Assembly (NCBI RefSeq): GCF_000765695.2
Contig: NZ_JRPB02000002.1
Span: 167,927 to 231,926 of the forward strand
Reading direction: 5' to 3'
DNA: 64,000 nt
Source of the DNA: Helicobacter sp. MIT 11-5569
GTDB lineage: Bacteria > Campylobacterota > Campylobacteria > Campylobacterales > Helicobacteraceae
Positions 45,288 to 64,000 of the stretch are shown piece after piece; position 1 is the stretch's first letter, and each line of letters opens with the position of its first letter. The translations under genes and the position numbers were made by a program. The notes below the pieces were generated by a model. It was not told the DNA's origin, did no database searches, and saw only the letters and a program-made list of their open reading frames with translations.

Positions 45288-46602
45288 ATGACACCATCAA
45301 TTTTACAACCACTCTTTCAACAATGGAGAGAAGAGGGACTTTCTTTTTGTGTAACAAGCGAAAACTATAATAAAAGTGATTTATTGGGTGAGCAAGATTC
45401 TGCTTCCACCACTTCTGCGGGGGGGGGGGGGGATTTTTAGCTATCCTTATGCACATCTGATTGAATCATCAGGGTATTGGGAAGAAAGAAATAATTATCA
45501 TGGAAAGCCGCCATTATTCTTATCTAAAGAATTGATAGAGAAAATCGCACTTTATTTGGTAGGACATATAAAGCCACGGGTAGTTTATTTACAAATAACA
45601 ACAAAATGTAATTATGTATGTCCAATGTGTCCATTTCATGGAAGTGGCTATGAGGGGAAATATTTTAAAGATAATCCAAGCTTAAAACCTCAAAATATGC
45701 CATTAGATGAAGCAAAGAAATGTATTGATAAGATTGTTGATTATGGAGCTAATATGGTCGCAATGTCTCCATCAGCAGAGTTTTTTATTTATCCTTATTG
45801 GGAGGAAATCAGTCGCTATATCAAACAAAAGGGATTAAAAATTAGTGCTACCACTAATGGATCTTTTGTTACTAAAGAAGTGATTGCAAAACTAAAAGAT
45901 ATTGGTTTTGATGAGCTAATATTCTCTATAGATTCTATTAATCAAGAAACTTATGCAAAAGTAAGGAGCTCAAAAGAGAAAGATTATCAAACTGCAATTT
46001 CAGCTCCTATTCTTGCAACAGAGGCGGGTATTTATGTGCAAGTGCATTTTACCCAACAAAAGCCAAATAGAGGGGAAAAAGATGCAGTCTTTTCTTTTTA
46101 TAAAATGCAAAATATTCGCTCAATGACTTTTGGGATTGAGTTGCACACAGAAGAAAACAAAGAATTAACAATTATGCCTATAGAAAGAAAAGAATATATC
46201 CATGGTTTATGTGGCGCATATAATAATCTAGTAATATTAATAGATGGGAATCTCGTTTCATGTTGCGGTTTTGCTAATCGCTATAAATATATAAAACCAA
46301 AACTGGATGCCTTTTCTTTGCGAGAGCATTCTATCTGCGAAGTATTATCCTACCAACATTCTTTAATGGCTAATAAGGATGAAGATGTTATGAAGTTGTG
46401 TTGTAGTTGTGATTTGTATCAAATTGCATTTGAATCAAAAAATCAAATTTCGGTTGAAAATAATTATGTTATAATTAAAAAAACAATATCCGAATCTCAT
46501 TTTAGAATACCAAAAGAATTAGAAAATATACCTAATAATATTCTTTCTTGGATGTATCAAAATAACATTGTATCAAAAATGAAGCAGGATAAAATTTTAT
46601 AA
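45288..46602 (+). pseudogene. Phase-variable radical SAM/SPASM protein 1, OFF (G14)
   Basis: ATG 45288 follows GAGG. The leader MTPSILQPLFQQWREEGLSF...SENYNKS runs into a linker QDSASTTSA and a G14 tract, then stops (GDF-TAG). With 13 or 16 G it joins a long ORF for a 437-residue protein: IFSYPYAHLIESSGYWEE, radical SAM cluster TTKCNYVCPMCPFHG, and C-terminal Cys motifs (LVSCCGF, KLCCSCDLY) of a SPASM-like auxiliary cluster. It ends NNIVSKMKQDKIL, like the array members at 61-64 kb. It lies behind a sigma28-like promoter. Substrate unknown; context suggests flagellar glycan modification. Confidence 0.85.
45419..45432 (+). repeat. Poly-G tract, 14 nt
   Basis: Lies in the linker between the conserved leader and the catalytic part of radical SAM gene 1. 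In-frame lengths are 13 and 16; the present 14 is OFF. Confidence 0.95.
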
Positions 46603-46712
46603 AAATTTATTATCAAATGAAAGAAAGTAGAATCGCAAGTTGTTTGTTTTGCATTTTTTAAGTGATTTTGTGGAATAATAAAATTATTGATGCAAGGAAG
46701 GTTTATTTACAA

Positions 46713-47213
46713 ATGGTTTTTATTCATCCAACAGCAAATGTTGCAAAAGGAGCGCAAATAGGGGCAGAAACTAAAATTTGGCAAAATGCTCAAATTAGGG
46801 AGTTTGCCCACATTGGGCAAAAATGTATAATTTCTAAAGATGTGTATATTGCGGAAAATGTTCAAATTGGTGATAGATGTAAGATTCAAAATGGAGTTTC
46901 TGTATTCCAAGGCGTTACGCTAGAAAATGATGTCTTTGTGGGACCAAATGCTTCTTTTACAAATGATAAAGTCCCGAGAGCCTTTAATGAAAATTGGGAG
47001 ATTGTCCCAACTCTTATTAAAGAGGGTGCAAGCATTGGGGCTAATGCTACGATTGTGTGTGGGATTACTATTGGCAAATATGCAATGGTGGCTGCAGGAA
47101 GTGTAGTAACGAAAAATGTGGAAGATTATAGTCTTGTAATGGGGAATCCCGCTAGACATTATAGTTACATTGATAAAATGGGCAATAAAGTGGAAACTAA
47201 ACCAAATGAATAA
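46713..47213 (+). CDS. Hexapeptide-repeat acyltransferase (WlbB/WbpD-like)
   Basis: 166 residues of left-handed beta-helix repeats (IHPTANVAKGAQIGAETKIWQ, GVTLENDVFVGPNAS, IGANATIVCGITIGKYAMVAAGSVVTKNV) closing with GNPARHYSYIDKMGNK. This is the pattern of WlbB/WbpD, which N-acetylate the 3-amino group of UDP-linked diamino-uronic sugars. A dehydrogenase and a DegT aminotransferase in the same operon are consistent with such a pathway. ATG 46713 is chosen because the acyltransferase pattern begins there; the extension to 46662 (GTG) is unlikely. Confidence 0.8.
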   Translation: MVFIHPTANVAKGAQIGAETKIWQNAQIREFAHIGQKCIISKDVYIAENVQIGDRCKIQNGVSVFQGVTLENDVFVGPNASFTNDKVPRAFNENWEIVPTLIKEGASIGANATIVCGITIGKYAMVAAGSVVTKNVEDYSLVMGNPARHYSYIDKMGNKVETKPNE

Positions 47214-62587: not shown

Positions 62588-62680
62588 AATTTAATAAAGG
62601 AACATAATGACACCACCTATTTTAAAAGAATTATTTGACCAATGGCGTAAAGAAGGATTATCCTTTTGCGTAACGAGTGA
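62522..62680 (+). repeat. 159-bp exact direct repeat, copy 1 (gene 2 end / gene 3 start)
   Basis: Bases 62522-62680 are identical to 63842-64000 (offset 1320 bp). The repeat spans the last 22 codons of one array gene, the 19-bp spacer, and the first 24 or so codons of the next. Confidence 0.95.
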
Positions 62681-63907
62681 GAATTATAATAAAAGCTTAT
62701 CTTATAATCAAGATTCTGCTTCTGCGGGGGGGGGGGGGAATATATATTTAGTTACCCCTTTTATTGCCCATCCGGCGAGGAATGGATGGAGGGTAATCTT
62801 TATGATGGTGAACCTCCAAAGGCATTACCTAAAGAGCAGATTGAGCGTATTGGAAAGTATCTTCTCAAAAATCGTCGTATTAGTTCTGCGACTATTCATT
62901 TGACTTCAAAATGTAATTATACCTGCCCAATGTGTCCTTTTCATGGGAAAGGATATAATGAGGGAGTGCGGTATTTTAAAGACAATCCAGCCTTAAAGGC
63001 AGAAATAACACTTGAAAATGTGATAAATATTATTGATAAGGTTTCAGACTATGGGATTGAGAGAATAAGTTTTACAAGTCAAGGAGAAGCTTTATTGCAT
63101 CCTCGTATTCTTGAAATTATAAAATACTGTAAAGAGAAGGATATATATACTACTCTAACTTCTAATGGTGCAGTTGTCGATGATACGCTAGTTAAGCAGC
63201 TAAAAGAAGCTGGATTAGATGCAATTGATTTTAGTATTGATTCTGTGGATAAAATGACATATTCTAAAGTGAGGAGTGCAAACGACAGGGATTATAAAAG
63301 AGCTATATCAGCTCCAATAAAAACAAGAAAAGCAGGGATTTACACAAGCATACAATTTACTGAACAGAAAGATAATAAGGGACAATTTAATGATATATTA
63401 AAATATTATCTTCCATATGGGATTAATCAAATTAGAAATGCATTTGAATGTGAAATGGATAATAATGGATTTAAGAGAAAGGAAGTCTATATAAAAAACA
63501 ATGAATATTTTATAGGCTTGTGCGGATCTAATGAGTATATTATATTGCTAGATGGCACACTTATTGGATGTTGTGCTATGATGTATTTTTATAATCAAGC
63601 GCAAGATAGGCTGCCTAATGTTTTAAAGGATTCTAGTTTTGAGGAATCATTGCAAAAACTACACTTTTTTTTAGCAGAAGATAAGTTTATGCAAGATAAG
63701 TGCAGAAAATGTGCCGCTTATGTTCCAAGTGTTGCTGTTCTACAAAAACAGAAGATAGAAAATGGATACTTTGTTTTTGAATATACTGATGGGAGGGAAC
63801 TTAGATTTATTGTGCCTGAGCCTTTACGAATATTACCAAATGATATTCTTTTATGGATGTATAAGAACAATATTGTAACAATGATGAAAAAAGACAAGAT
63901 TTTGTAA
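62607..63907 (+). pseudogene. Phase-variable radical SAM/SPASM protein 3, OFF (G13)
   Basis: Leader as in gene 2, then YNQDSASA and a G13 tract at 62726. In the present length the frame runs on wrongly into a ~98-codon ORF. With 14 (or 11) G it joins IFSYPFYCPSGEEWMEGNLY and gives a 433-residue protein with LTSKCNYTCPMCPFHG, a middle distinct from genes 1 and 2, a C-terminal DKCRKCAAY motif and the shared ending NDILLWMYKNNIV. An AAAGG site precedes the start 19 bp after gene 2. Confidence 0.85.
62726..62738 (+). repeat. Poly-G tract, 13 nt
   Basis: Leader-linker tract of radical SAM gene 3. Needs 14 or 11 to be in frame, so OFF now. Confidence 0.95.
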
Positions 63908-64000
63908 AATTTAATAAAGGAACATAATGACACCACCTATTTTAAAAGAATTATTTGACCAATGGCGTAAAGAAGGATTATCCTTTTGCGTAACGAGTGA
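63842..64000 (+). repeat. 159-bp exact direct repeat, copy 2 (gene 3 end / gene 4 start)
   Basis: See copy 1 at 62522. The match reaches the window edge, so it is longer in reality. Confidence 0.95.
63927..64000 (+). CDS. Radical SAM/SPASM protein 4, first 24 codons (runs off the window)
   Basis: ATG 63927 begins the same leader (MTPPILKELFDQW...) with the same AAAGG spacing as gene 3. Only the leader is in the window, so its tract state and function cannot be seen. It shows the tandem array continues. Confidence 0.85.
   Translation, partial: MTPPILKELFDQWRKEGLSFCVTS

Follow-up and report, generated by a model that had tools for sequence, protein, structure and literature searches.

A putative phase-variable family of twitch-type radical SAM enzymes in a flagellar island of Helicobacter sp. 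MIT 11-5569

Why would a bacterium keep four related radical S-adenosylmethionine (radical SAM) genes in the neighbourhood of a flagellin gene, three of them with a poly-G tract, and on what would their products act? Here we take up this question for a 64,000-nt stretch of Helicobacter sp. MIT 11-5569 (contig NZ_JRPB02000002.1, positions 167,927 to 231,926 of the forward strand; hereafter the window), which is the final 64 kb of contig C22 in a 1.88 Mb genome of 48 contigs. On balance, we think it probable that a twitch-type radical SAM family tailors the glycan put on flagellin by a predicted GT41-like glycosyltransferase encoded next to it, each gene being independently switched by slippage of its own poly-G tract.

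Radical SAM genes and their poly-G tracts

The four genes lie on the plus strand, three of them in tandem at the contig end:

45288..46602, plus strand: radical SAM gene 1, with leader at 45288-45377, G14 tract at 45419-45432 and a core open reading frame from 45376 to the stop at 46602, out of phase
61291..62587, plus strand: radical SAM gene 2, with G14 tract at 62280-62293 and a product ending at 62298 (335 aa)
62607..63907, plus strand: radical SAM gene 3, with leader, G13 tract at 62726-62738 and a core open reading frame at 62786-63907, out of phase
63927..64000, plus strand: radical SAM gene 4, first 24 codons only, cut by the contig end

An earlier note, made from the sequence alone, had proposed four related genes with a common leader, a radical SAM cluster and C-terminal cysteine pairs, and each of these features is borne out. 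The leader MTPxIL...FCVTSENYNKS is found at all four starts (45288, 61291, 62607 and 63927); CxxxCxxC is present in all 26 family members; the cores of genes 1-3 belong to the Pfam family Radical_SAM (PF04055; 63.9, 66.5 and 71.4 bits, gathering cut-off 29.5); and genes 1-3 have a C-terminal CxxC. The SPASM label given to the family has to be replaced by twitch, because the cysteine pattern C-x9-15-G-x4-C ... C-x2-C, which we take to be that of a twitch (half-SPASM) domain, occurs in 25 of the 26 members, and the seven-cysteine pattern that we likewise take to mark a full SPASM domain with two auxiliary clusters, searched by its first six cysteines, occurs in none. The exception to the twitch pattern is the truncated window gene 2, whose product stops short of the tail and of the final two auxiliary cysteines. 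Among seven proteins compared with PF13186 (SPASM; cut-off 21.5 bits), P0007 reached 26.2, four scored 13.0-19.4 and two had no match listed; among the top 25 of up to 46 NCBIfam families, no match to a named radical SAM equivalog (MoaA, viperin, BlsE and others) reached the curated cut-off.

That three of the four genes carry tracts and are out of phase also stands: genes 1-3 contain G14, G14 and G13, and the frame opened by the leader ATG ends after 50, 335 and 98 codons, respectively. The tract of gene 2 had been placed near the C-terminus; it lies about 100 codons before the gene end, between the cysteines of the auxiliary cluster, rather than at the extreme C-terminus. No tract was seen in the portion of gene 4 inside the window. 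Contig C48 shares 99 nt with the end of C22 and holds an open radical SAM copy of 425 codons (L011:26-1303), which reads through a G9 tract in frame, and gene 4 likely continues there, the join resting on the 99-nt repeat, within which an extra copy may hide, a point that counts against our reconstruction of the array. Ten G/C runs of at least 9 nt occur in the window as a whole, and all of them lie within 41258-62738; 50 first-order Markov simulations gave a mean of 0.04 and a maximum of 1.

A profile search at E 1e-30, which covered 398 genomes of the order and scored at most four candidates per genome, found the radical SAM family in nine, every one of them in the family to which the window belongs. 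Genome contigs were also scanned, which gave 49 loci. Four of these were close (E 3e-53 or lower), namely two from Helicobacter, one from Eubacterium plexicaudatum and one from a Lachnospiraceae metagenome-assembled genome; the remaining 45, at E 4e-16 or higher, were radical SAM proteins of more distant kinds. The single copy of Wolinella succinogenes (G120), a species regarded as non-pathogenic, is identical to P0163 over 357 of 357 residues.

These relatives support the idea of a phase-variable family in a surface-modification island. Eighteen of 20 copies from 11 genomes carry a G tract of 9-14 (two of the copies are cut by a contig end), and in-frame copies stand beside out-of-frame copies in G006, G011 and G115. 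An early stop interrupts 8 of the 20 and 12 are open to the end of their span, a count that speaks less for switching than it might, as five of the open spans were taken from open frames and are open by construction (G018, G002, G004, G115_2 and G120), the remaining seven starting at the leader or being truncated at a contig end. Six H. ganmani-type or uncultured Helicobacter records (P0004, P0005 and P0008-P0011) have, at the protein level, an identical core with a differing poly-glycine run and upstream frame: 3, 4 or 6 glycines in the leaderless frame, and 3, or 3 plus tryptophan, in the leader frame. These differences are natural polymorphism. As far as the records reach, neither outcome by which the earlier note would be refuted appears: tract lengths vary among records, and no housekeeping role was found for any homologue. 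Since tract length differs between records of a related species, on/off flipping is likely, and each enzyme is likely switched by the bacterium through its own tract, to judge from the sequences; it weighs on the other side that tract lengths come from draft assemblies and may be off by one base.

The position of the tract is not constant across the family. Ten of the 11 leader-type copies, and G018 as well, have it past the leader region, at nt 117-173, and window gene 2 has it at nt 990. Of the six leaderless copies with a tract, four have it at nt 470-475, and two are spans whose start differs. Because these sites differ, the tract likely arose more than once within the family. As a separate observation, TGC stands directly before 185 of 442 poly-G tracts of at least 10 nt in the whole genomes G000, G002, G006, G010, G011, G014, G016 and G018 (8 for the reversed pattern), pointing to a common origin or to tracts forming preferentially in a certain sequence context.

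Flagellar neighbours and a sigma28-type promoter sequence

The island can be described more precisely as flagellar, a reading supported by the following neighbours as predicted from their sequences:

41391..43373, minus strand: Maf/PseD-like flagellin glycosyltransferase
43440..45017, minus strand: flagellin, divergent from radical SAM gene 1, with a sigma54-type motif upstream
45111..45166, plus strand: exact second copy of a 56-nt repeat with sigma28-type sequence, ending 123 nt before radical SAM gene 1
46662..59022, plus strand: sugar and tailoring genes, six with G tracts
59114..59169, plus strand: 56-nt repeat with the sigma28-type sequence TTAAGTTT-N12-GCCGATAT, 36 nt before the GT41-like gene
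59204..61294, plus strand: glycosyltransferase of 696 aa, predicted to be GT41-like (OGT/SPINDLY/HMW1C fold), with a 4-nt overlap with radical SAM gene 2

The ATG of gene 2 lies within the stop of the glycosyltransferase gene (ATGA), and the order Maf, flagellin, glycosyltransferase, radical SAM is a recurring one. The Maf neighbour exceeds the cut-offs of the Pfam domains Maf_flag10_N and MptE-like and scores 493.8 against the NCBIfam PseD cut-off of 670. Upstream of the flagellin gene lies TGGAAC-N6-TTGCT, which we take to be a sigma54-type motif.

A sigma28-type promoter sequence before the glycosyltransferase gene would tie it to late flagellar expression. An exact TAAAGTTT-N10-13-GCCGATA occurs in six of ten genomes, as a single site in each and always at the start of this gene, and the reversed pattern occurs in none of the ten. 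Against the E. coli sigma28 consensus TAAAGTTT-n11-GCCGATAA (PMC2859248), the site with N11 and a final T before the glycosyltransferase gene matches at 15 of 16 positions in G002, G006, G010, G014 and G018, and both window sites match at 14 of 16 with N12; the best match in 296 random 250-nt windows was 13 of 16. The flaA gene of the window genome matches at 12 of 16, a level that random windows also attain. A looser pattern finds, in the window genome, the two 56-nt copies and one further place, within an open frame.

Taken together, these features suggest how the system might operate. Sigma28 would drive the operon of glycosyltransferase and radical SAM genes, such that the enzymes are made with the late flagellar genes, and the 4-nt overlap would couple their translation. 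Out-of-frame copies would yield no active enzyme, gene 2 giving a short product without two auxiliary cysteines. The substrate would be a flagellar sugar, either as nucleotide sugar or already on flagellin; the core groups would differ in reaction, and switching would then give combinations of flagellar forms.

The sugar and tailoring genes (46662..59022) encode an acetyltransferase, a GFO/IDH oxidoreductase, a nucleoside-diphosphate-sugar dehydratase, a DegT aminotransferase, formyltransferases, a sulfotransferase, a deacetylase, a beta-ketoacyl synthase III and an acyl carrier protein. The six with tracts (G11-G16, at 50212-57861, three of the tracts near the 3' end) encode a hexapeptide transferase, a formyltransferase, the sulfotransferase, a second hexapeptide-like frame (54546), the deacetylase and an unnamed product (57217). 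At 57865-59022 the beta-ketoacyl synthase III adjoins the acyl carrier protein within the sugar island, an arrangement suggesting that the glycan has an acyl group of its own. Beyond the Maf gene, a 106-aa frame on the minus strand (40952-41272) has a C13 tract (41258-41270) at its very start and short matches in two adjacent open frames of G018. Elsewhere (contig C1 of G000; L010:216-644 and 4533-5108), two proteins with a secretion-type N-terminus have an identical 53-residue start ending VVGG and different remainders, and may be precursors of one family that share a leader.

What the enzymes would act on

That a sugar rather than a polypeptide is the substrate would follow from the neighbours and from the Lachnospiraceae relatives, which are located among sugar genes. 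The fold is neutral: matches within a few Z units of one another include the sugar and nucleotide enzymes BlsE, BtrN, viperin and MoaA and the peptide enzymes SuiB, SkfB and EpeE, therefore the predicted fold does not choose between substrates. Few fold matches cover residues 1-76, the leader part, and a PDB sequence search with a radical SAM protein gave just weak matches to MoaA and SkfB.

Several further points weigh against the flagellar glycan reading. Flagellin is not on the same contig in G002, G016 and G115, and is about 23 kb away in G004 and about 54 kb away in Eubacterium plexicaudatum; two copies, those of G004 and Wolinella succinogenes, lack a tract. The exact sigma28 pattern is not found in G000, which has a variant, nor in G004, G016 and G120, Wolinella having no such site before its glycosyltransferase gene (best 9 of 16), and in G011 the pattern overlaps the mechanically called start of that gene. 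The 696-aa glycosyltransferase has no Pfam GT41 match, and other GT-B enzymes come close behind in its fold list (HepE 14.7, BshA 14.3); a PDB sequence search with this protein gave nothing useful.

The competitor that survives best, which we nonetheless regard as rather unlikely, has the flagellin polypeptide itself as the target of the enzymes, by way of epimerisation, cross-linking or side-chain methylation for instance, the glycosyltransferase acting in parallel on the same substrate. Many twitch and SPASM enzymes act on peptides, as do three in the fold list, and the sigma28-type sequence and the proximity of flagellin fit this account as well. There is also a precedent for a flagellin-modifying enzyme dependent on SAM and a [4Fe-4S] cluster in Salmonella FliB, which methylates flagellin lysines and has the motif CX4CX3CC and no characterised domain, according to the available text of its description (PMC8598068). 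This motif is absent from all 26 family members, by which FliB membership is rejected; the window island is moreover one of sugar biosynthesis, and in the Lachnospiraceae relatives, set among sugar genes, flagellin is 18 and about 54 kb off. The Lachnospiraceae contig CAMWBY010000020.1 (L116, L117) has flagellin beside heptose-type SIS-isomerase and HAD-phosphatase genes; some 20 kb from that flagellin it also carries an HldE-like gene and several radical SAM genes, and it perhaps holds a separate radical SAM flagellar glycan island.

It is less probable still that the enzymes tailor a sugar of lipopolysaccharide or capsule, with flagellin nearby by chance. The genes that follow on contig C48 (epimerase, amidotransferases, glycosyltransferase) are indeed of a general polysaccharide kind, and some relatives lie far from flagellin; against this, the sigma28-type site is exclusive to the glycosyltransferase-radical SAM operon in six genomes, the recurring gene order includes Maf and flagellin, and no flippase or polymerase is among the Pfam matches of the scanned island proteins, in a search that was not exhaustive. 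A defence locus of viperin-like, nucleotide-modifying antiviral enzymes is highly improbable: although viperin is among the best folds and the radical SAM core is hit by the PADLOC pVip models (E down to 9.6e-18), we set it aside because the stretches that match pVip best fall within the common core and do not reach the auxiliary cysteines, and the NCBIfam viperin score is 61.8 or less against a cut-off of 180. Just as improbable are decaying pseudogenes whose tracts mark broken, functionless copies, since, for all that three of four copies are out of frame in the window genome, cores retain catalytic and auxiliary cysteines, related cores are open in C48 and relatives, and tracts recur at three sites in the family.

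Known systems resemble parts of the proposed glycan-tailoring family. To our knowledge, the products of Campylobacter jejuni Cj1295 and maf1/maf4/maf7 are not radical SAM enzymes. These genes share with the window homopolymeric tracts in a flagellin glycosylation locus (PMC3068675, PMC6321876), and for Cj1295 mass spectrometry shows a changed flagellin glycan (PMC3068675). Here the difference is that the genes form a multi-copy family, accompanied by a GT41-like partner and a sigma28-type promoter sequence. Two other genes, CFT03427_1545 and CFT03427_1558, presumably belong to Campylobacter fetus, as we take their locus tags to indicate. Both stand as radical SAM genes of the MoaA/NifB/PqqE/SkfB type with G tracts (G9-G10 and G9) in the phase-variable table of a phasome survey, where they are table entries only, their family and function not being described in its available text (PMC6321876). 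The partner protein resembles SPINDLY-type GT41 transferases in predicted fold and in its location in a flagellin glycosylation island (PMC4875605), and differs in its missing Pfam match and its setting, that paper making no mention of radical SAM. The family is also distinct from BtrN and BlsE (17% and 15% identity in fold alignments, with the BlsE NCBIfam cut-off not reached). No described flagellar radical SAM family was found in the literature searched, most subscription papers being outside its scope, and a Clostridium flagellar glycosylation paper does not mention radical SAM (PMC13317340).

Old cores with probably renewed ends

In a core tree of 35 rows, window genes 1 and 4 fall in a supported set of nine (98/98) with copies of H. 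rodentium, H. ganmani and MIT 05-5294; gene 2 is joined by G006_4 and P0016 (100/100), and the partners of gene 3 are G006_2, P0015, P0147 and G018 (100/99). By this phylogeny the four window genes represent three old core groups. Their ends tell another story, and one repeat spans them:

62512..62680, plus strand: 169-nt repeat of tail, intergenic sequence and leader, 98% identical to 63832-64000

Compared as DNA, genes 2, 3 and 4 have leaders with 96% identity, and genes 2 and 3 have tails with 95%, while cores are at 68-70%; in other species, the leaders of the genes that correspond to 2-4 are just 71-77% alike. The gene 4 leader value depends on the assembly, because part of it sits in the 99-nt contig overlap; genes 2 and 3 are unaffected. 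The leader of gene 1 is nearest that of MIT 05-5294 (91%; core 82%); between the two copies of that genome, identity is 99% in the leaders, 67% in the cores and 69% in the tails. Recombination via the common 169-nt repeat is the likely cause of the homogenised ends, as the sequences suggest, and the same repeat likely broke the assembly at the C22 end. Against a general rule, the gene 4 tail (76%) is unlike those of genes 2 and 3 and not homogenised, nor are the leaders of G006 (63-85%). Through near-identical ends, recombination would add, remove or swap cores.

The common ends joined to old, diverged cores suggest a cassette-like renewal of substrate range. A bolder proposal, possible but which we hold as doubtful, is that the GT41-like enzyme glycosylates flagellin in the cytoplasm and that four switched radical SAM enzymes, docked via the common leader and tail, do different C-H chemistries on the protein-bound sugar, recombination through the shared ends continually swapping catalytic cores; if true, up to sixteen flagellar forms could arise per clone. 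Phase-variable flagellar glycans are already known; switched, oxygen-sensitive radical C-H chemistry on flagellin would, if true, be a new enzyme class for surface variation, and would predict flagellar sugars beyond the ordinary glycosylation pathways in this Helicobacter group and perhaps in its Lachnospiraceae relatives.

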